From the NCBI GenBank assembly GCA_022705425.1, contig JAKJEM010000003.1:162456-203513 (forward strand): a stretch of 41,058 bases of DNA. The letters run 5' to 3'. How positions within the stretch are numbered: position 1 is the stretch's first letter; each line of letters begins with the position of its first letter. The position numbers and the translations under genes are program-made. This document shows, piece after piece, positions 2,589-41,058 of this stretch. The notes below the pieces were generated by a model. The model saw only the letters and a list, made by a program, of their open reading frames with translations, ran no database searches and had not been told where the DNA came from. This stretch comes from Planctomycetota bacterium. Lineage in GTDB: Bacteria; Planctomycetota; Brocadiia; CAIUPP01.

Positions 2589-2634
2589 GAAACGCAAGAC
2601 GCAGAGGCGGCAGTTCCTCTGGATGGAGGCAGGC

Positions 2635-4002
2635 ATGACACGGCGTCCGAACATTCTGTTCATCATGGCCGACCAGCACCGCTTCGATTACCTGGGAAGC
2701 GCGGGGGCGCCCTTTGTGCGGACGCCGAACCTGGACCGTCTGGCGGCGCGGGGGGTGCGCTTTGCGAACTGCTTTACAAACTCCCCGGTATGCGCGCCGG
2801 CGCGCATCGGGCTGGCCACGGGAATTGACCCGATGCGCAGCGGCGCGCTCGACAACGAGTCCTTCCTGCGCCCGGAGGCCGTCACCTACTATATGCGCCT
2901 GCGCGACCACGGCTACCGCGTGGGGTGCGTGGGCAAGCTCGACCTGGCCAAGCCCGATACGTACAACGGACGGCACGGCGACCGCCCGTGCGTCTTCCGC
3001 TGGGGGTTCACCCATCCCGAGGAGGTGGAGGGAAAGGAGCACTCTCTCAAGTACCCGCAGCCGAAGGGGCCGTACGGCTTCTGGTTACAGGAGAAGGGGC
3101 TCTACGAGGCCTATCATCGCGAGCGTGTCTCGCACAAGGGCTTCGCCAAACTCTGCTGTCCTTCGGAGCTTCCGACGGAGACCTTCCTGGATTGTTACCA
3201 GGGGCGACGGGCGGTGGAGTGGATTCGGCGTGTGCCGGAGGACTTCCCGTGGCACTACTTCGTGAGCTTCTCGGGCCCGCACAGCCCGCACGACCCGCCG
3301 AAGGAGTACTTCGCCCGATTCGCCGAGGCGGCGATGCCCGAGGCCGTTGCGCCGCCGGAGCCCGGGGCGGCCCCCTGCCGGCGCGCGCACCGCCTGGAGG
3401 GCGCGTTCCTGGCCGATGTCCGGCGCGCGTATTGCGCGTACATCACGTTGATTGACGAGTGGGTCGGGCGCATTCTGGAGGCGCTCGAAGCGCGCGGCAT
3501 GGCGGAGAACACCTGGGTCTTCTACTCCGCTGATCACGGGGAGATGCTCGGCGACCTGGGGCTTTTCGGCAAGTCGGTGCCCTATGAACCTTCGATGCAC
3601 GTGCCGCTGCTGGCGGCGGGTCCGGGGAGTGCGCGCGGGGCCGTGTGCCGGGCGATGGTCGAGATGAGCGACCTGAACCCGACGATCTGCCGGCTGGCCG
3701 GGCTGCCCGCGCAGCCGGGGATTGACGCGCGCTCCTTCCACGAATGCCTCGCCGACCCCGACGCGCCGCACCGCAGCGAGATCGTCTCCGCCCTTCGCCG
3801 CTGGCGGTGCATCCGGACCGCGCGGCACAAGCTCGTCCACAACTGGAACGCTGCGAGTGAGTTCTACGACCTCGAAGACGATCCGGGCGAGCGGCACAAC
3901 CTGGCGGAGGCGGATCGTCCGCCGCCAGCGCCGGGGGACGCGATGGAACGACGCCTCTACGCGCGGGAGGCGGCCAGCCCGCACGGGGGGCCGCACGCGT
4001 AA
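2635..4002 (+). CDS. Type I sulfatase (alkaline phosphatase superfamily)
   Basis: A 455-residue formylglycine-dependent sulfatase. The N-terminus NILFIMADQHRFDYLG carries the first metal-binding Asp (D13). The sulfatase signature CAPAR follows at C53, the Cys to be converted to formylglycine. FYSADHGEMLGD supplies the later metal ligands, and the C-terminus ends with the usual YDLEDDPGERHNLAE. It should hydrolyse a sulfate ester, probably on a sugar. The start at 2635 is chosen over the ATG at 2623 because GGAGG ends five bases before it. No signal peptide is present: the catalytic domain begins at once, suggesting a cytoplasmic enzyme acting on imported saccharides. It is monocistronic with its own promoter and converges on the nadK operon. 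No maturase gene is in the window. Confidence 0.93.
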   Translation: MTRRPNILFIMADQHRFDYLGSAGAPFVRTPNLDRLAARGVRFANCFTNSPVCAPARIGLATGIDPMRSGALDNESFLRPEAVTYYMRLRDHGYRVGCVGKLDLAKPDTYNGRHGDRPCVFRWGFTHPEEVEGKEHSLKYPQPKGPYGFWLQEKGLYEAYHRERVSHKGFAKLCCPSELPTETFLDCYQGRRAVEWIRRVPEDFPWHYFVSFSGPHSPHDPPKEYFARFAEAAMPEAVAPPEPGAAPCRRAHRLEGAFLADVRRAYCAYITLIDEWVGRILEALEARGMAENTWVFYSADHGEMLGDLGLFGKSVPYEPSMHVPLLAAGPGSARGAVCRAMVEMSDLNPTICRLAGLPAQPGIDARSFHECLADPDAPHRSEIVSALRRWRCIRTARHKLVHNWNAASEFYDLEDDPGERHNLAEADRPPPAPGDAMERRLYAREAASPHGGPHA

Positions 4003-16478: not shown

Positions 16479-16928
16479 ATGAAGGCGGATGCAAAGACGA
16501 CCGACGCCGTCCTGGGAACGCTGAAAACGCTGTGGACGGCCTATGTCCACAAGGACCTGGATGGCGTGATGGCCTGCTGGGTCCCGGAGGAGCACATCTT
16601 CGTTTACGGCGCGGGCGCCGACGAGTGCTGCGCCGGCGCGAAGAAGCTGCGGAAGGGCTACCAGCGCGACTTCGAACAGTCGGGGGAGTTGGTCGTCAAA
16701 CTGGGGCGGCAGTCCGTCTATGCCGTCGGCGACACGGCCTGGGCGGTCGGGGCGCTGGTCGTTGCCTCGAAGACGGGCAAGCAGATCAACGCCGTCGAGG
16801 GTCGCTGCACCACGGTCTTCGTCCGGCGCGAAGGGAAGTGGCTCGTGGCCCATTCGCACTTTTCCGTCCCCAACGCGGCGCAGAAGAAGGGGGCATCCTT
16901 CCCCGAGCGGAAGAAAGCGAAGGGGTGA
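16479..16928 (+). CDS. NTF2/SnoaL-like protein
   Basis: A 149-residue single-domain protein of the NTF2-like cone fold. An N-terminal helix (VLGTLKTLWTAYVHKDLDGV) is followed by MACWVPEEHIFVYGAG, and then by beta strands GDTAWAVGALVVASK and RCTTVFVRREGKWLVAHSHF, the typical SnoaL/DUF4440 end. Members include small enzymes and ligand-binding proteins, so function cannot be assigned. No signal peptide. The tail is basic (PERKKAKG). Its stop is separated by one base from the next ATG, arguing strongly for coupling with the UroD-family gene. Confidence 0.83.
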   Translation: MKADAKTTDAVLGTLKTLWTAYVHKDLDGVMACWVPEEHIFVYGAGADECCAGAKKLRKGYQRDFEQSGELVVKLGRQSVYAVGDTAWAVGALVVASKTGKQINAVEGRCTTVFVRREGKWLVAHSHFSVPNAAQKKGASFPERKKAKG

Positions 16929-16929
16929 C

Positions 16930-18054
16930 ATGCGTCCGCGCGAACGCTTTCTCCGCGCGATGGCCGGCGAGACGCCCGACCGTGTCCCGGTGGCGCCGAA
17001 GATCTGGGTGGACCTGGCCTGCCGCGTGATGGACGTGCCGTTCCTCGATGTCCTGAACGACCCGATGCTCGGCCTGAAGACGGTGGCGCGGGCGAATCGG
17101 AAGCTGGGCATGGACGCGGCGCGCCTGTTCACCTTTGCCCGACGGCGTGTGCGCAAGTCGGGGGAGCTCTACCTGCACGTGGATTCGCGCGGGCGGCGGC
17201 TGGGGACAGTGGACATCTCCGGCGGCTGGGCGACTCACTTCGACGATCCGAAGCGGGTGGACCTCTCCGACCCCGAGATCATGGTCCACTACAGCCACTT
17301 CGCCTCCGCCGAGCCTGCGGTGCGGGGACCGGAGGACGTGCGGCGCATCGTGCCGCCCCTGGCGCGCTTCTACGACGAGGCCGGATACGGGCGCGCGGTG
17401 GATGAGATGGCGGCGGAGGCCGGCGACGACCTGGCGCTGATCGGCGATTGCAGCTCAGGGACGCTGGCGTTTTATGTGGCGCTGCGCGGCATGACCCCTG
17501 CGCTCCTCGATTTCTTTGACAACCCCGCCCTGGTCCACGCGGCGATGGACAAGGGCGTGGCCTACGCCGTCGAGCGGGCGCGCTTCTTTCTGGCGCACGG
17601 GGTGACGACCCTCCGCTACAACGACTCGGCGGCCAACATGAGCGTCATCTCCCCCGCGCAGTGGCGGGAGTTCATCCTGCCGCACGTGCGGGAGTTCTGC
17701 GCCGAGGTCCACCGCCTCGACGCGCGCGCGAAGGTCTATTGTCACATCTGCGGCAATACGCTGCCGATCATCCCGGCGTTGCTGGAGACGGGCCTGGACT
17801 GCATCGGGCCGCTGGACCCGCTGGGGGGAATGACGGTGGCGGAGGCGCGCCGCGCCGCCGGGCCGGAGGTGACGCTGATGGGCGGGGTGAATACGCTGTC
17901 CTTCGTTCACGCGACGCCCGAGGCCCTTCGGGCGGAGGCGCGCCGCTGCATCGAGGAGGGTGGGGCGCGATACATCCTCAGCTCGGGCTGCGCCTTGCCG
18001 CGCGCGACGCGCATCGAGAATCTCATTGCGTTACGCGAGGCGGCGGAGGGGTGA
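16930..18054 (+). CDS. UroD-family protein, probable zinc-dependent methyltransferase
   Basis: A 374-residue TIM-barrel protein starting MRPRERFLRAMAGETPDRVP, the common opening of uroporphyrinogen decarboxylase relatives. It is unlikely to be HemE. Near the C-terminal side it has HICG (H272, C274) and a later Cys in LSSGCALP (C354), the H-x-C...C zinc pattern of the MtaA/MtbA/CmuA corrinoid:thiol methyltransferases. This suggests methyl transfer from a corrinoid or demethylation of a small methylated compound. No corrinoid protein gene is in the window. It is the last gene of the cluster, followed directly by a 7-bp tandem repeat. Confidence 0.87.
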   Translation: MRPRERFLRAMAGETPDRVPVAPKIWVDLACRVMDVPFLDVLNDPMLGLKTVARANRKLGMDAARLFTFARRRVRKSGELYLHVDSRGRRLGTVDISGGWATHFDDPKRVDLSDPEIMVHYSHFASAEPAVRGPEDVRRIVPPLARFYDEAGYGRAVDEMAAEAGDDLALIGDCSSGTLAFYVALRGMTPALLDFFDNPALVHAAMDKGVAYAVERARFFLAHGVTTLRYNDSAANMSVISPAQWREFILPHVREFCAEVHRLDARAKVYCHICGNTLPIIPALLETGLDCIGPLDPLGGMTVAEARRAAGPEVTLMGGVNTLSFVHATPEALRAEARRCIEEGGARYILSSGCALPRATRIENLIALREAAEG

Positions 18055-28947: not shown

Positions 28948-29760
28948 GTGCATCGCATACTGCCTCTTGTCCTGGGCGTTGGGGTGTGGTGCGCTGCGGC
29001 GCTGGCACTGGACGTCAAGCCCTCCGATTTCGGCGGCGCCCGCCCGGAGGGCCCCTGCGAGATCGTCGTTCCGCGCGTGGACACGCCGCCGGCGATAGAC
29101 GGCGACCTCGGCGACGCCGTCTGGGCGCAGGCGGCGGCGGCGAAGCCCTTCTGGCGCGCGGGGGCGAACGTCCTGGCCGAGGAGCAGACGATCGCCTGGC
29201 TGTGTTTCGATCGCGACAACCTGTACGTGGCCTGGGCCTGCCTGGATGCCAAACTGGTGGGGGAGCCGGTGGCGCGCGACGACAAGGCCATCTGGCGGCA
29301 CGACTGCGTCGAGGTGTTCCTCAGCCCCGAGCGCGACGCGAAGACCGAGCGGCAGTTTATGCTCAGCGTCGAGGGGGCCGTTTACGACCGCCGTCCCGGC
29401 GCGGAGTACGGTCCCGGCGGGGCGGACTGGAACCCGAAGTGGGAGGGCAAGGTGAAGCGCCAGCCCTGGGGCTACACCGCGGAGATGCGCCTGCCCTTTG
29501 CCGAACTGCTCGATGCGCGGAAGTACCCGGTGGGGCGAGGATCGGTTTGGACGATGAAGCTGACGCGCCAGGACCGCGGCGACCATTCCGGCACGCGGAC
29601 CTCCTCCTGGACGCCGATCGGCCCCAACACGGGCGACCTGCGCGCGGTGGGGCGGTTGATCTTCGAGGACCGCAATCTGCTGGCCAACGGCGGTGGGATG
29701 GACGGTGACGTCCACGAAGGTCACCGCCACGGTGCGCTCGACGGCGGAGGAACGCACTGA
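28948..29760 (+). CDS. Exported CBM9-like domain; probable 5' part of a frameshifted GH20 gene
   Basis: The frame gives 270 residues. It starts at a GTG with GAAGGAGA upstream, and has a signal peptide (LPLVLGVGVWCAAALAL). A CBM9/DOMON-like domain follows: PAIDGDLGDAVWAQA, LCFDRDNLYVAWACLDAKL, DCVEVFLSPERDAKT, and a final RLIFEDRNLLANGG. Such domains bind glycans or sit in front of glycosidases. After NLLANGG the frame reads a short meaningless tail (DVHEGHRHGALDGGGTH) to the stop at 29760. Another frame from 29693 carries on as GWTVTSTKV, exactly where a domain homologous to the start of the 25270 protein should begin. I infer one gene, 28948-33445, with a frameshift near 29690-29700. Confidence 0.82.
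   Translation: MHRILPLVLGVGVWCAAALALDVKPSDFGGARPEGPCEIVVPRVDTPPAIDGDLGDAVWAQAAAAKPFWRAGANVLAEEQTIAWLCFDRDNLYVAWACLDAKLVGEPVARDDKAIWRHDCVEVFLSPERDAKTERQFMLSVEGAVYDRRPGAEYGPGGADWNPKWEGKVKRQPWGYTAEMRLPFAELLDARKYPVGRGSVWTMKLTRQDRGDHSGTRTSSWTPIGPNTGDLRAVGRLIFEDRNLLANGGGMDGDVHEGHRHGALDGGGTH
29690..29701 (+). other. Apparent frameshift site between the CBM9-like part and the GH20-like part
   Basis: At GGCGGTGGGATGG the upstream frame loses homology and the +1 frame gains it. Removing one G of the GGG run would join NLLANGG to WTVTSTKV without a stop. The cause could be a true mutation, a sequencing error in a G run, or programmed frameshifting. Confidence 0.65.
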
Positions 29761-32700
29761 AGGCGCGCGCGGGGCAAAGATCGAGGTCGGAAACCGCCAG
29801 GGCGAAGGGGCGGTCGCGCGCGTGTGGCCGGGGGCCGACTCCCTGCCCTCGGCGCCGGTCGAGACGACCTGGCTCTTCACCGCCGACGTCAAGGCCGTTT
29901 CGCCGGACGGGTCGCTCGTTGCCTACTTCGTCGTCTTCCATGAGGGGCGGACGGAACAGGTCAACTTCAAGCACAACGCCGGGTGGCAATCCGTCCGCGC
30001 CGTCGTGACAACGTCCGCCGGCGCGCGTCCGGCAGCGCCCTGCATCCAGACCACAGCGCAGGCCAGGCCGGGCGGGGGCGGCGGGGGCGTGATCTACGTG
30101 GACCGGGCGCGCATCGAGATCGTGGACGCGCAAGCGCTCGGCATCGAGCCGGACAGCTTCTGCCTGACGGGCAACGCCACGAACGCCTGGCGCACCCGCA
30201 ACCGGCGCGTGCCCGGCACGTACACCTACTTCGAGGCGATGACGACCGACCCCTCCTTTCCGCCCTACTATGCCCCCGGCGACGGGCCGCCCCAGGACTA
30301 CGGCCTGTACCGCGGTGAGATCCCCTTCGACAAGGGCCGGCTGACCGACGGGCTGACCTCGACCACCGTCGCCTGGCCCTCCTTCTGGACGGGCCATCAG
30401 GGGCACGACATCCTCTTCGACCTGAAGTCGGAGTACGAAATCACGCGCGTGGTCATCAAGACGAGCTGGCCGGGGCTGCGGATGAACCACGTCTTCCTCA
30501 AGTCCCCCGGCGAACCGGTCTTCACCCTGGTGGCCTCGAAGCCCGACCGCGTGGCCTTCAAGGGCACGGGCGGCCCGATGCCGGGGTCGGAGACAATCGA
30601 GCGCGTGGATGAGCGCTGTTTCGAGGGCATCCGTCAGGCGGCGCGGTGGGTGAGGGTTCAGAGCGAGTGCCGCTCGCCCGGTCAGTATGCGGAGATCGAA
30701 ATCTGGGGGAAGGAACTGCCGAAGGACGGCCCGCGACCGAAGCGCACGCCCTGGCTCCAGGCCGGCGGCGCAACGCCCTTCCCCGACCCCGTCGGCGAGC
30801 CGGAGCCGACGTGGGAGGTCCCGCCGGTCTTTCCGCTGCCCCGGGAGATGAAGGCGCAAGGCGCGGCGACGCCCCTGGTCGGGGGGTTGACGATCGGCTT
30901 CGAGCCTGCCGCCAGCGCGCGGGCGCGCACCACGGCGGAGGTCCTGCGCGACGAACTCAAGCTGTGCTTCGGGCTCGAGTCGGTCGTGACGCCGGCCGCC
31001 GCCGAGCGGAAGGAGGCCGTCCTGATCGGCGAGGCCGCCGAGTCCCCCCTGACGTCGGCGGCGCTCGCGGCGCAGGGGCTGACCGTCACGCCCGCCTCGC
31101 CGGGGCCGGAAGGGTACGTCCTCTGCGCCCGCGACGGGCGTATCGTCATCGGCGGCAGCGACGCGCGCGGGGCCTTCTACGGCATCCAGACGCTGCTGAC
31201 CCTTGCCCGCAGGACGCGCGCCGGGACGTGGGAAGTCCCCGGCGTCGTCATCCGCGACTGGCCGACGATGAAGTATCGCATCATCGAGGGCCGCGCCATT
31301 CCCTCGCAGAGCCTCGTCCGCGCCCTGGCGCGCTTCCGCGTGAACTACTACACTCCGAAGTACCAGTTCATCCACCAGAGCGTCGAGCATGACAAGTTCG
31401 CGGAACGCTACTTCGTCAGCTTCATCCCCTTCCTCGACTTCAACGGCATCGTTATAGGCACGGACCCCTCCCTGGCCGAGCGTCCGGCGGATGAGCGGTG
31501 GCAGGACCTGCCCAACGACGCGCGGCGCAATGCGAACCCGGGCCATCCGCGCACCTGGGAAATCTACTTTGCCGCACTGGACAAGTACCTCCCCAAGTTC
31601 CACGGCGACATCCTGTACATCGGCATGGATGAAACCTACCAGCACAACCACGGCTCGCGCTGGAACGTTTCGCCGGAAAGCCGGGCACTTGACATGTCCG
31701 CCGGACAGCTCCTGGCCTACACGATCAAGAAGATTGACGCCAAGGCCAAGCAATATGGCAAACGCGTCTTCATGCACGACACGCCCTTCTGTCGCGACCA
31801 CACCCTCAGCTACAAGGGCGACCCTGACCCCAGTTGGCGCAAGGCGATTCCCCTCCTGCCGAAGGACGTGATGTTCAACGTGTGGCACTGGAACAGGAAA
31901 TGGGTCCTCGAACCGCTGGGGAAGCAGGGCGGCTTCGACCTGGTGTACCTGTGTACGGGCGACCGGGACTGGCGCGCCCCGGCAAAGGTGGACCCGGACC
32001 AGGACGTCGTGCCCTTCGAGTTCCCCGGCTATTTCGCGGGGATCAACAACTACATGGCGGAAGGCAGCTTCACCGCCAGCAAGCTGCTCGAGACGGCCTG
32101 GGTGGCGTGGAACGCCGGCGCGCCGCGCCCCAAGGACCCGGCGATCAACGCGGCCGTGGCGCACTACACGGCCCTCTGGAATCAACTCCACCTGGGCGAT
32201 CCCATTCCCGCCAGCCTGGCCGCCGGGGCGGGGGACTTCATCCCTGTGGACCTTTCCGCTGCGGCGAACCTCAGCCGCACCGACGAAATCGCCTATGACG
32301 GAAAGGGCTGGGTGGACATGGGGCCGAACATGGACCTCCGCGCGCTGAAGCCCGGCGTGATTTCGATGGCGGGCGTTCCCTTCACGATCATTGACGAGGC
32401 GAAGAACGGCGGCAAGAGCGTCGTGGCCGTCCAGAACCGCCTGTACGCCGACAGGACCCTCCCGGAGGCGGTGGAGATTGACGTCAAGGAACTCAAGGCC
32501 TCAAGCCTGGTCTTCCTGCACTGTCTCGACAACGCGCCCGGCTCCAACTATCTGCGTCGGAAGGAACTGGCCGGCTACTACTTCCTCGTCTTCGAGGACG
32601 GGACCTACGCCCGGCGGGAGATCAAGTACGCCATCAACACCGGCAACTGGGACGGGCTGAGGCTGCCGTGGGAATACGGTCCGGCGGGCGACACGATGCC

Positions 32701-33445
32701 CTTCGGCAAACCGGCCTGGCGCGGGCGAACGATGTCCGGCCTGATGGCCACCCTGTACATGACGGAGTGGGCGAACCCGCGCCCGAACCTGCACATCCGG
32801 AAGATCATCCTTCGCGCAACGCACGACCCCGGCATGATGAACCCCATGCTGCTGGCGCTGACGGCGATCCACCCGCGACATGCCGCCCCGCCGGCGGCGG
32901 AGCCTCTTCCCTCGGCCGACCTGCTGAGCCCCGCGCGTCCCGTCGGGACGCCTCTGGACCTCTCGGGCGGGCGCGACGAGTCCGAACTGCGCTATGTCGC
33001 CCCGGACGGCACGATCATCGAGACCGACCGCATCGCCAACGCCTTGAGCGACAAGAAGAGCAGCGCCTTCTCGAATGACTGGCGCTCCTATGTCGGCCTG
33101 GTTACGATGGACGGCCACCAGGCCGCCCGCACGGACCAGGTGAGATTTACCCTCCCCGGACCGACGCCCCTGACGGGGGTGCTGGTCACCGGGCGCTACC
33201 GCGAGCAGCGCAAGGCGCAGGACTTCGGGCCGATGATCTTCGACCTCTTCCTCGACGTGTCGGAGGACGGCGGCAAGACGTGGCAGCAGAAAGCGGTTGT
33301 CCGCCACACGACGCCGGATGAGGTCGGGCCGGTGTGGCTGCCGCTCGACGGAACGCCCGTGCAGCGTCTGCGCCTGCGCCAGACGCAGGGACCCAATACG
33401 CACTACTCCGGCTTCAGTTTCGTGCAGCTCTATCGTCGCCCGTAG
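29693..33445 (+). CDS. GH20-like glycosidase with CBM-like and C-terminal modules (3' part of the frameshifted gene)
   Basis: About 1250 codons, with no ribosome site or signal peptide at its own start (a GTG at 29693), consistent with being the continuation of the CBM9-like frame. Order: a CBM-like domain (TTWLFTADVKAV, KHNAGWQSVRAVVT), a discoidin-like region (YEITRVVIKTSWPG), and the GH20 domain 2 (ARTTAEVLRDELKLCFGLE, IVIGGSDARGAFYGIQTLL). A TIM barrel follows with the catalytic Asp-Glu pair kept in ILYIGMDETYQ (D646). The last 100 residues resemble a beta-sandwich (FDLFLDVSEDGGKTWQQKA). GH20 enzymes remove beta-N-acetylhexosamine through the acetamido group. The usual GGDE is GMDE here, so exact activity is uncertain. 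Confidence 0.85.
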   Translation: MGWTVTSTKVTATVRSTAEERTEGARGAKIEVGNRQGEGAVARVWPGADSLPSAPVETTWLFTADVKAVSPDGSLVAYFVVFHEGRTEQVNFKHNAGWQSVRAVVTTSAGARPAAPCIQTTAQARPGGGGGGVIYVDRARIEIVDAQALGIEPDSFCLTGNATNAWRTRNRRVPGTYTYFEAMTTDPSFPPYYAPGDGPPQDYGLYRGEIPFDKGRLTDGLTSTTVAWPSFWTGHQGHDILFDLKSEYEITRVVIKTSWPGLRMNHVFLKSPGEPVFTLVASKPDRVAFKGTGGPMPGSETIERVDERCFEGIRQAARWVRVQSECRSPGQYAEIEIWGKELPKDGPRPKRTPWLQAGGATPFPDPVGEPEPTWEVPPVFPLPREMKAQGAATPLVGGLTIGFEPAASARARTTAEVLRDELKLCFGLESVVTPAAAERKEAVLIGEAAESPLTSAALAAQGLTVTPASPGPEGYVLCARDGRIVIGGSDARGAFYGIQTLLTLARRTRAGTWEVPGVVIRDWPTMKYRIIEGRAIPSQSLVRALARFRVNYYTPKYQFIHQSVEHDKFAERYFVSFIPFLDFNGIVIGTDPSLAERPADERWQDLPNDARRNANPGHPRTWEIYFAALDKYLPKFHGDILYIGMDETYQHNHGSRWNVSPESRALDMSAGQLLAYTIKKIDAKAKQYGKRVFMHDTPFCRDHTLSYKGDPDPSWRKAIPLLPKDVMFNVWHWNRKWVLEPLGKQGGFDLVYLCTGDRDWRAPAKVDPDQDVVPFEFPGYFAGINNYMAEGSFTASKLLETAWVAWNAGAPRPKDPAINAAVAHYTALWNQLHLGDPIPASLAAGAGDFIPVDLSAAANLSRTDEIAYDGKGWVDMGPNMDLRALKPGVISMAGVPFTIIDEAKNGGKSVVAVQNRLYADRTLPEAVEIDVKELKASSLVFLHCLDNAPGSNYLRRKELAGYYFLVFEDGTYARREIKYAINTGNWDGLRLPWEYGPAGDTMPFGKPAWRGRTMSGLMATLYMTEWANPRPNLHIRKIILRATHDPGMMNPMLLALTAIHPRHAAPPAAEPLPSADLLSPARPVGTPLDLSGGRDESELRYVAPDGTIIETDRIANALSDKKSSAFSNDWRSYVGLVTMDGHQAARTDQVRFTLPGPTPLTGVLVTGRYREQRKAQDFGPMIFDLFLDVSEDGGKTWQQKAVVRHTTPDEVGPVWLPLDGTPVQRLRLRQTQGPNTHYSGFSFVQLYRRP

Positions 33446-33468: not shown

Positions 33469-34836
33469 ATGCCACAGCGCTGCTTCGACGTGCATGCCGA
33501 CGGGGACTATGACGTGATGGTCGTCGGTGGCGGGACTACCGGGATCGCCGCCGCTCTTGCCGCCGCCCGCGAAGGCGCGCGGACGGCTCTTGTCGAGGCG
33601 CTGGGATTCCTTGGCGGGAACTCCGCCGCCGTTCCGGCCTGGCTGGGCTTTCATGACGGCGTCGGCGAGCGCGTCGTCGGCGGCATCGCGCAGGAGATCG
33701 TCGAGCGCCTCCAGCGGCGGAAGGGGGCGACGCCCGTCTATACGGACCCCATCTGCGGCAGCGTGGTGGGGATTGACCTCAGCGCCTGGAAGCTGCTGGC
33801 CTTGGAGGCGGTGCGCGAGGCGGGGGTGGACACGCTGCTGCACAGCCGCGCGGTGGCCGTGGACCTCAAGGGTCCTGCCGTGTGCGCCGTGCTCTGCATG
33901 GACCGCGCCGGGCTGCGCCGGCTGGGCGCGCGCGCTGTCGTGGACTGCACCGACGCCGGCGACGTCGTCCGCGCCGCGGGGGGGAGACTGCGCCGGGGCC
34001 GCGAGAGCGACGGCCTCATGCAGGTGGCCTCCTGGACCTTCGCCGTGGAGGGCGTCAACTTCCCGGCCCTGTTCGACCACTACCGCCGCGTCCCGGGCGA
34101 CATCCGTCCCTTTCCCGGCGTGGACGGCGGCGAGCGCCTCCGCCGCATGGCGAGCGACGAGGTCTTCGTCATAGGGTCCTTCCGCTCGTTGATCGCTCGC
34201 GCGCGGAGGGAAGGAATGTCCCTGCCGCGCGACATCTTTCCCGGCGTCGCCTTCCCGCGGCTCGGACGCGTCTTCAGCGTCGCCACGCGCGTCGAGGAGG
34301 CCGATCCGCTCGATGCCCGCTCCCTCACTCGCGCCGAGTTTGCCGGCGCCGGCCAGGTCCCCCTGTGGCTGGATTTCCTGCGCCGCTACGTTCCCGGTTT
34401 CCAGGACTGCCGCCTGGCGTGGACGCCCCACCAGATCGGCCTGCGCGAGACCTGCCACACCGAGGGGGACTACACGCTGACCGCCGACGACCTGATGGCC
34501 GGACGACAGTTCGACGACGCCATCGCGCGCGGGGGATACCACATGGACGTTCATCCCCCCGATCACGCGGGGCTGGACACGCGCCGTCCGCCGGCATACA
34601 CGATTCCCTATCGGTGCCTGCTGCCGCGCGGCATCCAGGGGTTGCTGGTCGCCGGGCGCTGCATCAGCGCCACGCACGAGGCCATGGCCTCCACGCGCGT
34701 CATTCCCATCGGCATGGCCCTGGGGCAGGCCGCGGGCGTGGCGGCCGCATTGGCGGCCCGGTCGGGTGTGGAGCCGCGCGCCGTGCCCGTTGCTCTTCTC
34801 CAGGCCCGCCTGCGCGAGGCGGATGCCTTGCTCTGA
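33469..34836 (+). CDS. FAD-dependent oxidoreductase (pfam12831-type)
   Basis: A 455-residue flavoprotein. The Rossmann motif VMVVGGGTTGIAAALAAAREG starts near residue 17, followed by GFLGGNSAA. ARAVVDCTDAGDVVRAAGG marks the second nucleotide contact, and GLLVAGRCISATHEAMASTR with IGMALGQAAGVAAALA closes the FAD site. Such proteins are frequent beside sulfatases and glycosidases in PVC genomes; their substrates are mostly unproven, with sugar oxidation suspected. No signal peptide. The ATG at 33469 has AAAGGA upstream; earlier in-frame codons lie inside the GH20 gene. It is followed after 18 bases by a double version of itself. Confidence 0.9.
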   Translation: MPQRCFDVHADGDYDVMVVGGGTTGIAAALAAAREGARTALVEALGFLGGNSAAVPAWLGFHDGVGERVVGGIAQEIVERLQRRKGATPVYTDPICGSVVGIDLSAWKLLALEAVREAGVDTLLHSRAVAVDLKGPAVCAVLCMDRAGLRRLGARAVVDCTDAGDVVRAAGGRLRRGRESDGLMQVASWTFAVEGVNFPALFDHYRRVPGDIRPFPGVDGGERLRRMASDEVFVIGSFRSLIARARREGMSLPRDIFPGVAFPRLGRVFSVATRVEEADPLDARSLTRAEFAGAGQVPLWLDFLRRYVPGFQDCRLAWTPHQIGLRETCHTEGDYTLTADDLMAGRQFDDAIARGGYHMDVHPPDHAGLDTRRPPAYTIPYRCLLPRGIQGLLVAGRCISATHEAMASTRVIPIGMALGQAAGVAAALAARSGVEPRAVPVALLQARLREADALL

Positions 34837-34854: not shown

Positions 34855-37800
34855 ATGCCCGCCGGAACGCGCCGCATCGCCGCCCAGGTTACCCAACTGC
34901 TGTCCACGGACGCGCTGGTGGTCGGCGGCACGTTGGGCGCGTGCGCGGCGGCCCGCGAGCTGGCACGGGCCGGACGCCGCACCGTGCTGGCGGCGCGGGA
35001 GTGTTCGCTGCCCTTTGAAATGAGCGTCTGCCGCCGTCCCTGGGTTCGATCCGGCGAACTCGCCGCCCTGCCGACTCCGTGGCGCGCGCTCCTCTCCGCG
35101 TGCGTCGAGGGCGGCCTGGGCGGCGGAGAGCATCTTCTCAACCTTGCTCGTCTGGCCGCGCGGGTGGAGGAGGCTCTGCTCGACGCCGGGGTAACGCTCT
35201 TCTACGGCATGACGCCGTGCGGTCTTGTGCGCGCGGCGAAGGGCGCGCCCGCCGGGGTCCTGTTCGGCGGCAAGTTCGGCCTGTGTGCCATCGCCGCGGA
35301 GACCCTTCTCGATTGCACCCCCGATGCCGCGCTGGTGGCGGCTGCCGGGGGACGGGTTTACTCGCGCGTCAAGGACCGCGCCGTCGTTCATCTCTCCTGC
35401 AAGGTGAACCAGGCGGCGGATGGAGACCCGCTGACTCTGGACCGCGGGCAGCGGTGCGAGTCCCCCACGAAATGGCCCGACGCGCGGGAGTTGCGCCCCT
35501 CCGGCGTGGCGGCCCTCACGGGGGGCCGCGTCCCCCTGCACGGGCCCTTCGCGGAGTTCATTCTGCGGCTGCCCTTTGCTCCCGAGTCGCCGTTGCGCGA
35601 CAGCCGGCTGGCCGTCGCGGCGCGGCGGGCGGTTCTCGATGTTGGGGCCGCCGTCGCCGCCGACCGCGCCGCTGCGGGCAAGGAGCGCCTCTTCTTCCAC
35701 CGTTTCGGCGATGGGCTCCTCACCGAACCGCTCGTCCGCATCGCCGGCGCGCCGGGGAACCCCTTCCGTTCGCGCGGATTCCGCAACCTCTTCGTCCTGG
35801 GTCCCGCCGCCGATGTGCCCGACTCCGCCGCGCGCCGCCTGTGGAGTCCCTGTCATGCCGCGCGCGAGGCCGTCCGCCTGGCGGCGCGTCTGTCGAAGGT
35901 CCGGATCAGGGCGTCCGCGCACGGTTCGGACGTCGCGTCCCCCGCCGGCGCGGGCCAGGGCGTCTCCATCCGACGCCTTCACTTTCAGGATGCGCCGCCG
36001 CTGCACGCCGTGGGAACGCTTCCGCTGGCCGACGGGTCGTTGCCCGTGCTGGCGCAGTGCGATACGCTGGTCGTCGGCGCCGGCACGTCCGGCGTGCCCG
36101 CCGCGCTCGCCGCCGCGCATTTCGGCGGACGCACGATCCTGATCGAGCAGCACGCCGACGTCGGCGGGACGCGGACAATCGGGGGGGTAGGGTCCTACTG
36201 GTTCGGGCGCGAGACGCCCTTCCAGCGCGCCTGCGACGAGGCGTACGACCGCGTGTCCCGGCGGTGCGCCGTGGCGGAGGAGACGGCGATGCTCGCCGCC
36301 TTGGTCGAGGCCGGGGTCGAGGTGCTGCCCCTTTCGTCCGTTGCGGGTGTCCTGTGCGAAGGACGCCGCGTGACGGGTGTAGCGGTGGCCGCCGGGGGGA
36401 GGCTGGGGGTGATCCGCGCGCGGGCGGTCGTGGACGCCACGGGGGACGCGGACCTGGCGGCCTGGGCCGGCGCGCCCTTCGAGTACGGCAACGGGCGCGA
36501 TGCATGGACGCTGTGGGCCTCCTTCGCCGATTTCAACGGGCCGAAGCGCACGGCCAGTCGAATGTATGAGTCGGGCATCGAAACGCGCGACCCGTGGGAC
36601 TTCGCGCGCACGATCCTTCGCAGCCGTGGTCGTCCGGGGATGTGGAACCGGTTGCCGCACGAGATGCCGCAGCACTATGTGGCGCCGCGCGAGTCGCGAC
36701 GCGTCGCCGGGCGGGCACGCGTGACCTACGCCGGCATCCTGGCGGGCGAGACCTTCCCCGACGTGATGGTCGTGTGCGACGCGAACTTCGACCTCAAGGG
36801 AATCGCCACCAGCGACCTGCTGTGCTCGGGCGTCGTCTGGAGTTGGGGTGTCTGCCGGCGGTACCTGGCGGCGATCCCGTACGGAGCGATCGTCCCTCGA
36901 AGCGTGGAGAACCTGCTGGTGGCGGGGCGGGCGTATTCCGCCACGCACGACGCCATGAGCCTGGCGCGGATGCAGCGCGACATGGCGAGCCTCGGCGCGG
37001 CGGCGGGCACGGCGGCGGCGCTGGCGGCGCAGCAACGGGTGTCGCCGGGGCGGCTGGACGCGGAGACGCTCCAGGCGGAGTGGGTTCGGCGAGGAATCCT
37101 GCGTGCGGAGGATCGGCGGCGGTGGGGGCGGTTGCCGGAGCGGTACGGGCGCGGTGAGGCGGCGGAGGATGCGCGTCGTGTGGCGCGTGGCGGGCGGGAA
37201 TGGCCGCGCGCGGCGGCGCGGCTGGCGCGCCATCCGGCGGCGGCGCTGCCGGCGTTGCGGGGGGCCTTTCGCCCGGCGCGGAAGGGGCCGTCCGGCCTCC
37301 GGATCGGACGCCTGCTGTGCGCGCTCGGCGACGGAGGCCCCGTTTCCTTCCTTCTCGATAACACGGCGCAAAGGACAGCGACCCGCCTGCCGCCGCCGCG
37401 CCGTCGAACGCTGCGGGTCCCCCCGGAGCATGGTTGGGCGCCCGAGCCGGCGTACTCGCTCTACGCCGTCGGCCTGGCCGGGGCCGGCGCGCGCGCGGCG
37501 GAGGTGATGACGCGCCTCGCGCGGAGGATCCCCGACGATGCCGCACTCTATGCCGATCCGAAGCGCTCGCCCTTCGAGTACGTGCGGACGATCTGCGCCG
37601 TGGCCGAACGCTGCCCCGGCGTCGCCCTTCGTGCGCCGCTCGAGGAGCTTCTGCGGAAGTCGAGTCTGCGCAACCAGGACGTGTCCTTCACCCGCGACGT
37701 TCGCCGCGCGAACGACCCCGTGGCCGAGCGCCGCGCGTGGCTGGAGATGGCGATCGGGCGGGCGCTGGCGCGGTGCGGCGATGCGCGCGGCCTCGACATC

Positions 37801-37920
37801 CTGCGGCGGTACCGGGATGACGTCCGGGGGCCGCTGGCGCGCAGCGCCGAGGAGGAGTTGCGTGACCTGGCCGCCGCCGGGTTCGCCAAGACGATACCCT
37901 GGAAGCGGAGGATTGACTAG
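34855..37920 (+). CDS. Double FAD-dependent oxidoreductase with a HEAT-like C-terminal region
   Basis: A 1021-residue protein made of two flavoprotein halves. The first starts DALVVGGTLGACAAARELAR (about residues 19-38), a degenerate dinucleotide motif (GGTLGA), and retains only a shortened core (FVLGPAADVPDSAARRLWS), so it may not bind FAD. The second starts DTLVVGAGTSGVPAALAAAH (about residues 402-421) and is complete, with GGTRTIGGVGSYWFG, VDATGDADLAAWAG and LLVAGRAYSATHDAMSLAR. The last 160 residues are helical repeats (AEVMTRLARRIPDDAAL, ARCGDARGLDILRRY), similar to HEAT/PBS-lyase repeats. It has AGGAGA before the ATG, and its stop codon directly touches the next start. Substrate unknown; it was probably formed by duplication of the upstream gene type. 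Confidence 0.87.
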   Translation: MPAGTRRIAAQVTQLLSTDALVVGGTLGACAAARELARAGRRTVLAARECSLPFEMSVCRRPWVRSGELAALPTPWRALLSACVEGGLGGGEHLLNLARLAARVEEALLDAGVTLFYGMTPCGLVRAAKGAPAGVLFGGKFGLCAIAAETLLDCTPDAALVAAAGGRVYSRVKDRAVVHLSCKVNQAADGDPLTLDRGQRCESPTKWPDARELRPSGVAALTGGRVPLHGPFAEFILRLPFAPESPLRDSRLAVAARRAVLDVGAAVAADRAAAGKERLFFHRFGDGLLTEPLVRIAGAPGNPFRSRGFRNLFVLGPAADVPDSAARRLWSPCHAAREAVRLAARLSKVRIRASAHGSDVASPAGAGQGVSIRRLHFQDAPPLHAVGTLPLADGSLPVLAQCDTLVVGAGTSGVPAALAAAHFGGRTILIEQHADVGGTRTIGGVGSYWFGRETPFQRACDEAYDRVSRRCAVAEETAMLAALVEAGVEVLPLSSVAGVLCEGRRVTGVAVAAGGRLGVIRARAVVDATGDADLAAWAGAPFEYGNGRDAWTLWASFADFNGPKRTASRMYESGIETRDPWDFARTILRSRGRPGMWNRLPHEMPQHYVAPRESRRVAGRARVTYAGILAGETFPDVMVVCDANFDLKGIATSDLLCSGVVWSWGVCRRYLAAIPYGAIVPRSVENLLVAGRAYSATHDAMSLARMQRDMASLGAAAGTAAALAAQQRVSPGRLDAETLQAEWVRRGILRAEDRRRWGRLPERYGRGEAAEDARRVARGGREWPRAAARLARHPAAALPALRGAFRPARKGPSGLRIGRLLCALGDGGPVSFLLDNTAQRTATRLPPPRRRTLRVPPEHGWAPEPAYSLYAVGLAGAGARAAEVMTRLARRIPDDAALYADPKRSPFEYVRTICAVAERCPGVALRAPLEELLRKSSLRNQDVSFTRDVRRANDPVAERRAWLEMAIGRALARCGDARGLDILRRYRDDVRGPLARSAEEELRDLAAAGFAKTIPWKRRID

Positions 37921-39519: not shown

Positions 39520-41058
39520 ATGGACCTCTACCTGGCGACGAACGGCAAGGACGCGTGGTCGGGCCAATGGCCGCGCCCGAACGCCGAGGGGACCGACGGC
39601 CCGTTGGGCACCTTGCAGGGCGCGGTGCGGAAGCTGCGCGCGTTGAAGGATGCGGGAACCCTCGACGGCCCGGTGACGGTGTGGGTGCGCGGCGGGGTCT
39701 ATCCCCTCACGGCGCCGGTGCGCCTGACGCTGGAGGACTCGTGGCCGGCCGCCTTTGCGGCGTGGCGCGGCGAGCGTCCGGTCTTCGACGGCGGCGAGCG
39801 CATCGCCGGATGGCGTGTCACGACGCTGAACGGCCGAAAGGCCTGGGTTGCCGACTTGCCCGAGGTCGCGGCGGGGCGGTGGAACTTCCGCAGCCTCTTC
39901 GTTAATGGGCGTTCCGCGCCGCGTCCGCGCCGTCCGAAGCAGGGGCTTTTCCGCATGGCGGAGGCTCCCGGCCTGACGCTGCCGGCGCGCTGGGGCGGTG
40001 GCGGGCAAACGCAGTTCGTGTGCGCGGCGGGGGACGTGGAACCCTTCCGGAACCTGACCGACGCCGAGATCGTGTACGTCCATTACTGGATCGAGGAGCG
40101 CTCGGGGATCGCGGCCTTCGACCCTGCGCGACGCCTGGTGACGATGGCGCGACCCAGCCGGACGGCGCTGGTCGGCTGCAACGGCTCGCAACTGGCGGAC
40201 TACTACGTGGACAACGTCTTCGAGGCGCTGACCGAGCCGGGAGAGTGGTATCTCGACCGTCCGGCGGGGCGGCTGTACTACCTGCCCCGGCGGGGTGAGA
40301 CTCCGGCGAACACAGAGGTCCGGGCGCCGAGACTCCTGCAGCTTCTCGTCCTCCGGGGCGAGCCCGAGGCGGGGCGATTCGTCGAACACATCCGCTTCCG
40401 GGGGCTGACCTTCCGCCACACCGATTGGCGTCACCCCGGCGAGGAGACCGGCGGCGTGGACCCCGATACCGGCGAGCGATTCAGCCGCGGCGGCGACGCC
40501 TCCACCTCGCAGGCCGCCAGCGACGTTCCCGGCGTGCTCCGCTTCCTCGGCGCGCGCCACTGCGCCGTGGAGGACTGCGTCATCGAGCGCGTGGGCTGGT
40601 ATGGGATCGAAATCGGCGCGGGGTGCGTGGGACTGCGCGTGGCGGGAAACATCCTGCGCGACCTGGGCGCCGGCGGGGTGAAGATCAACGGCGCGGCGGC
40701 GCGCGAGGCCTGCCCGGCGCGGACGACCGGCGGCCACCGGGTCACCGACAACGTCATCCACGCCGGCGGGCGCGTCTTCCACAGCGCCGTCGGCGTCCTG
40801 AGCATGCACGCCCACGATCTCGAGATCTCGCATAACCACATCCACGACCTCTTCTACACCGGCATCTCCTGCGGATGGGAATGGGGCTACCAGGAGAACG
40901 CCAGCTACAACAACCGCATCGAGTTCAACCACATCCACGACATCGGCCAGGGCCTGCTCAGCGACATGGGGGGCATCTACACCCTGGGCGTGCAGCCGGG
41001 CACGGTCATCCGGAACAACCTGATCCACGGCATCCGCAGCGCCCACTATGGCGGCTGG
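39520..41058 (+). CDS. Right-handed beta-helix glycosidase-like protein, GH141-like (3' partial)
   Basis: Open for 513 codons to the window edge. It starts MDLYLATNGKDAWSGQWPRP, the usual head of such beta-helix enzymes, then PVFDGGERIAGWRV, NFRSLFVNGR and GEWYLDRPAGRLYYLPR. The helix coils follow: IRFRGLTFRHTDWRH, CVIERVGWYGIEIGAG, NHIHDLFYTGISCGWEWGYQ and SDMGGIYTLGVQPGTVI. This pattern matches GH141-type and related parallel beta-helix proteins (alpha-fucosidase or xylanase among known ones). No signal peptide is seen at this start; an ATG at 39503 or 39512 would not give one either. AAAGGA lies seven bases before 39520. It continues the locus behind the sulfatase. Confidence 0.85.
   Translation, partial: MDLYLATNGKDAWSGQWPRPNAEGTDGPLGTLQGAVRKLRALKDAGTLDGPVTVWVRGGVYPLTAPVRLTLEDSWPAAFAAWRGERPVFDGGERIAGWRVTTLNGRKAWVADLPEVAAGRWNFRSLFVNGRSAPRPRRPKQGLFRMAEAPGLTLPARWGGGGQTQFVCAAGDVEPFRNLTDAEIVYVHYWIEERSGIAAFDPARRLVTMARPSRTALVGCNGSQLADYYVDNVFEALTEPGEWYLDRPAGRLYYLPRRGETPANTEVRAPRLLQLLVLRGEPEAGRFVEHIRFRGLTFRHTDWRHPGEETGGVDPDTGERFSRGGDASTSQAASDVPGVLRFLGARHCAVEDCVIERVGWYGIEIGAGCVGLRVAGNILRDLGAGGVKINGAAAREACPARTTGGHRVTDNVIHAGGRVFHSAVGVLSMHAHDLEISHNHIHDLFYTGISCGWEWGYQENASYNNRIEFNHIHDIGQGLLSDMGGIYTLGVQPGTVIRNNLIHGIRSAHYGGW

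Follow-up and report, generated by a model that had tools for sequence, protein, structure and literature searches.

Related flavoproteins

The closest described systems to the protein considered here are the single-copy flavoproteins of Pfam family PF12831 (FAD_oxidored), the geranylgeranyl reductase and FixC (EtfC) flavoproteins of the GR2 type, and the group comprising flavocytochrome c fumarate reductase, urocanate reductase, and Thi4. The gene lies in a 41,058-nucleotide stretch of planctomycete DNA (hereafter, the window) and encodes two flavoprotein-like halves, termed the N-half and C-half, followed by a helical tail. The C-half belongs to the same family as the PF12831 singles, with FAD motifs intact, but the singles have one copy, no flavin-less-looking half, and no helical tail, and they fall outside the clades of both halves. 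The N-half is alike in fold to the GR2 flavoproteins 7koe_C (FixC/EtfC; Z 17.6) and 3oz2 (Z 17.5) over 281–290 residues, but at only 13–14% identity; we take both to be flavoproteins with canonical motifs. The C-half (approximately residues 397–727) aligns structurally with fumarate and urocanate reductases (Z about 16–17.7), although the group that includes these enzymes and Thi4 has no tandem half and only ~17–21% identity to the C-half. A sequence search for solved structures found no close one.

Rab GDI and REP have kept an FAD-type fold without FAD as a protein-binding scaffold; they are eukaryotic and, unlike the double gene, carry no active flavoprotein half fused to them. They are precedents for a cofactor domain kept as a scaffold. 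A flavin-less-looking half within a conserved three-part family is real, and it is more widespread than the initial annotation of the window, made from the sequence alone, had seen. As judged from search listings, nothing was found in the literature on the three-part architecture; the family offers a handle on the PF12831 proteins, which are little described, the accession being named by one paper of the library searched.

Gene and architecture

The double flavoprotein gene occupies positions 34855..37920 of the window (+ strand; 1021 aa, ATG start, TAG stop). As the initial annotation had it, a single flavoprotein gene comes before it: a PF12831 protein (33469..34836, + strand) whose stop is separated from the double-gene start by 18 bases. 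This single matches the entire PF12831 model (359 bits, Pfam) and represents a subfamily distinct from the N-half and C-half; it has no DATG glycine, reading DCTDAGD. Recent duplication of the single was considered as the origin of the double gene and rejected: the single is closest to other singles (42% identity) and falls outside the N-half and C-half clades in the tree.

Searched as a whole, the double protein matches PF12831 in three pieces, with 210.1 bits against a gathering cut-off of 27 bits. The N-half (residues 14–354; 34894..35916, + strand) scores 39.3 bits by itself, over model positions 1–157 only, and the C-half (residues 396–745; 36040..37089, + strand) together with the tail scores 182.2 bits. 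AlphaFold, given the whole 1021 residues and a 70-row alignment, predicts both halves and the tail to be well folded (pLDDT 88.3, pTM 0.93), with the N-half packed confidently against the remainder of the protein. Model and structure alignment together place the N-half in the GR2/FAD-type fold, without canonical FAD motifs. Its core had been described as shortened, which was not confirmed: the halves are of similar length (~341 modelled residues in the N-half vs ~350 in the C-half).

The tail comprises the 272 C-terminal residues (750–1021; 37102..37917, + strand). It is modelled as all-helical and, folded alone, reaches pLDDT 89.3 and pTM 0.88; its fold resembles alphaRep (HEAT-like), armadillo, and CpcE/CpcF structures with Z 10–11.4, which is below the tool's safe level for helical proteins, these readily giving PDB matches of this kind. 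Pfam returned no family for residues 750–1021 at E ≤ 1, hence no HEAT model, and Foldseek returned no match for the tail at E ≤ 0.001; relatives L077 and L032 score 23.7 and 17.5 bits to HEAT_2, below its 27.7-bit cut-off. The earlier label of a HEAT-like tail is a fair description of the predicted fold, while membership of the family is unproven. Within the tail, all five specified residues of a motif R-A-x-x-R-C-G (residues 969–975; 37759..37779, + strand) are invariant in 70/70 rows. The motif is not evident in the C-subunits of the split pairs described below.

Flavin motifs and split pairs

GxGxxG, the ribose-binding acid, DATG, and the GG doublet, presumably the FAD-contacting motifs of GR-type flavoproteins, were compared, the doublet in 70 rows and the others across 113 rows with a C-half, from which 104 N-halves could be extracted, the acid position being readable in 100. 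Near-identical rows (L079/L104 and L083/L094) were kept, and duplicates of the window locus, L021, and L025 were removed. The GGTLGA reported for the first half is present at residues 24–29 (34924..34941, + strand) in place of GxGxxG: VVGGTLGA (22–29) stands opposite VVGAGTSG (406–413) of the C-half, whose P-loop GAGTSG is at 408–413 (36076..36093, + strand). Ala47 of the N-half (34993..34995, + strand) is aligned with the ribose-binding acid of the C-half, Glu431 (36145..36147, + strand). With E431 and a GG doublet at 437–438, the C-half is canonical for PF12831, in agreement with its annotation as intact; the canonical FAD motifs of the family are not found in the N-half.

The same disparity extends across the family. 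The acid (D/E) was present in 113/113 C-halves and 19/100 N-halves; complete GxGxxG in 112/113 C-halves and 8/100 N-halves, all eight of them acid-keeping; and the DATG glycine in 110/113 C-halves and 1/103 N-halves, one more N-half being gapped there. Both glycines of the doublet occur in 70/70 C-halves. In the N-halves of the same rows, the second doublet position shows no G among its eight commonest letters, which account for 67 of the 70. The acid position of the 81 acid-less N-halves is occupied by A (66), S (5), C (3), T (3), G (3), or M (1). One of the 81, L024, is an unsure call, with its N-half out of register; the N-half start at L024:4558-7758 (profile coverage from 69) suggests a frameshift or assembly error. 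Among 15 single PF12831 proteins taken as controls, 12 had GxGxxG plus acid and [DE]xTG by pattern; two were without the GxGxxG-plus-acid pattern and the window's own single was without [DE]xTG. By these alignments nearly the whole family has evidently dropped one flavin-contact motif from the N-half, and in most lineages further ones appear to have gone. Loss of the acid or of the exact P-loop alone is no proof of FAD loss, since some flavoproteins deviate, including the window single with its missing glycine.

The 19 acid-keeping N-halves come from Bacillota, Chloroflexota, one Actinomycetota, one Armatimonadota, L128, and five split pairs. In the split pairs, all from planctomycete family f54 (G112, G131, G163, G192, and G220), the N-subunit and the C-half-plus-tail are encoded by separate, adjacent genes on the same strand. 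The N-subunits are ~310–320 aa long, share 53–73% identity with that of G192, and retain GxGxxG and the ribose-binding acid. A search of 294 genomes with the N-subunit gave matches in six, the sixth (G196) within a longer open frame. Genes that are fused in one place and neighbours elsewhere usually encode parts of one complex. At L134:4289-8909, a tandem pair of C-half-type genes is found downstream of a single N-subunit gene.

The explanation that we favour, and consider somewhat better than an even bet from sequences and models, is that of an ancient two-part flavoprotein in which the N-half became a flavin-less structural partner, or pseudo-protomer, of a working C-half. The widespread family is built on an old PF12831-type pair, with most members fused and bearing the HEAT-like solenoid; its architecture, conservation, motif state, and pairing, as well as the split forms, are shown by the sequences. 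We infer the cofactor content and function of both halves as follows: the C-half would carry FAD and perform the redox chemistry, its substrate probably being a sugar or sugar-acid, given the sulfatase and glycosidase neighbourhood; the N-half, having abandoned normal FAD binding, would be packed on the C-half as a fixed flavin-less pseudo-protomer and complete its structure or active site; and the tail may clamp both halves or a partner. The dimer-mimicking role that had been suggested for a degenerate first half fits this explanation, the N-half being conserved, accompanied by a C-half in every case open to judgement, and encoded in one family by a gene of its own next door; the notion of decay at this locus does not hold, as the loss is common to relatives. 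The family forms a series (separate subunits; fused with the acid kept; fused with a flavin-less-looking half) that allows testing of how a cofactor-binding domain turns into a structural partner.

It is unlikely that both halves bind FAD, the N-half by a relaxed motif, and exchange electrons as a two-flavin enzyme. Such an enzyme would account for the GR2/FixC-like fold retained in the N-half and for the acid kept in split N-subunits, Bacillota, and Chloroflexota (with GxGxxG in the split ones), but not readily for the 81/100 N-halves without the acid or the near-absence of the DATG glycine. Weak or altered nucleotide binding by the N-half is possible, because the generic FAD-type fold and a VLGGCAD-like stretch are kept; many relatives retain this stretch near the N-half end.

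Constraint on the N-half

In the acid-less group of 51 rows, mean pairwise identity is 0.449 for the N-half, 0.578 for the C-half, and 0.470 for the tail, and 56 N-half columns are conserved at ≥ 90%; in six window-clade rows the corresponding means are 0.306, 0.441, and 0.323. By this comparison the N-half evolves roughly as the tail does, unlike unconstrained sequence. An alternative is an N-half repurposed for another ligand, be it NAD(P), a substrate, or an effector, that regulates or feeds the C-half. In its favour, the fold is retained, D153 is invariant in 70/70 rows, and N-half positions 101 (K), 139 (N), 140 (R), and 257 (R) are conserved in the 51-row group, but positions 101, 139, and 140 are altered in the window protein, and an arginine two positions past the lost acid is also found in acid-keeping N-halves (12/14; split 5/5); we regard repurposing as improbable. 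A switch of the N-half to NADP-type binding is weakened as a candidate by the same arginine, which, being present in acid-keeping N-halves too, points to no new NADP-type gain.

An insertion within the N-half was seen at L077:9116-12604, where residues 143–260 match PF00754 (F5/8 type C, discoidin-like) with 31.8 bits against a cut-off of 28.2. A similar insert occurs in L004 and L005; the window protein is without it.

Distribution and phylogeny

Some match at E ≤ 0.001 was found in 19 of 58 wider-kin genomes, many of these being single flavoproteins, and a match at E ≤ 1e-60 in 30 of 294 genomes of the phylum. A scan of genome contigs yielded 194 relatives, the best 80 loci of which were kept; 69 of these supplied full-length relatives with the window architecture. 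They belong to Planctomycetota, Verrucomicrobiota, Kiritimatiellota, Lentisphaerota, Hydrogenedentota, Sumerlaeota, Bacteroidota, Chloroflexota, Bacillota, Actinomycetota, and Armatimonadota. Among rows with enough upstream sequence, none had a C-half truly without an N-half; the 9/113 rows without one all start ≤ ~400 bases from a contig end. A search of phage families gave no match, and a plasmid search gave eight partially matching records, none reaching 80% coverage. The window genome is a draft (288 contigs) and the window has a long branch, which might speak for recent decay of a pseudogene kind, or for a fusion made in assembly, in this genome alone. Such a reading has a negligible chance of being correct: decay is rejected and fusion excluded by recurrence of the architecture across many phyla, single-contig genomes G179 and G217 included; the frame is also open without stops and the N-half is constrained.

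A tree combining 24 halves of each kind with 15 singles placed the N-halves in one clade (24/24, SH-aLRT 99) and the C-halves in another (24/24, 100), which implies that the pairing is old. The split and L128 forms cluster together in the N-clade and C-clade alike, and this group is the first to separate within the C-clade. In a tree of 113 C-halves, nine rows make up the window clade (support 100), which shares a 24-row clade (SH-aLRT 99) with the Bacillota and Chloroflexota that keep the acid; an 80-row clade of Planctomycetota, Verrucomicrobiota, and Bacteroidota is separate from it. Long branches (window, L025, L026) lower the certainty of these placements. Parsimony requires a minimum of two changes of acid state on the tree, and a single loss was not rejected by the one-loss constraint test (AU p 0.099). 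That test covered 50 rows out of the 100 whose acid state is known: 19/19 acid-keeping, 6/7 window-clade, and 25 other acid-less rows, with L024 omitted as out of register. We tentatively suggest, as a history with rather less than an even chance of being right, that the flavoprotein was heterodimeric and that, once its subunits were fused, one of them turned into an obligatory pseudo-protomer without flavin, the acid having been lost twice independently: in the window clade and in the large Planctomycetota/Verrucomicrobiota/Bacteroidota clade.

Gene neighbourhood and location

In the window, a GH20-domain protein (29693-33445) lies upstream of the flavoprotein pair. Downstream, the ATG of a sulfatase gene (PF00884; 37921..39483, + strand) abuts the double-gene stop and a GH141-like beta-helix protein begins at 39520. 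The presence of the GH20-domain and GH141-like proteins makes the setting look like one of polysaccharide degradation. Elsewhere in the window, 2623-4002 and 16720-18054 encode another sulfatase and a URO-D-like protein.

Among relatives, 99 of 132 listed immediate neighbours were scanned; they included xylose-isomerase-like TIM barrels (7), other PF12831 proteins (6), Fer4_5 (5), FMN_bind (4), GH20 (3), raffinose-synthase (3), GFO/IDH/MocA (3), and sulfatases (2). The suggested sugar-catabolism setting is thin yet consistent, and the substrate is a guess. A crude rule put a signal-like hydrophobic stretch ahead of the N-half in 31/69 rows belonging to neither the window group nor the acid-keeping one (a set that also contains some split rows), in 0/6 window-clade rows, and in 0/10 acid-keeping rows; cellular location thus probably differs between clades. 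In Verrucomicrobiota, a divergent neighbour with FMN_bind plus Fer4_5 domains, presumably NosR-like, may serve as a membrane electron partner; it was seen at L043:7353-9062, L059:6843-8540, and L084:2317-4014.
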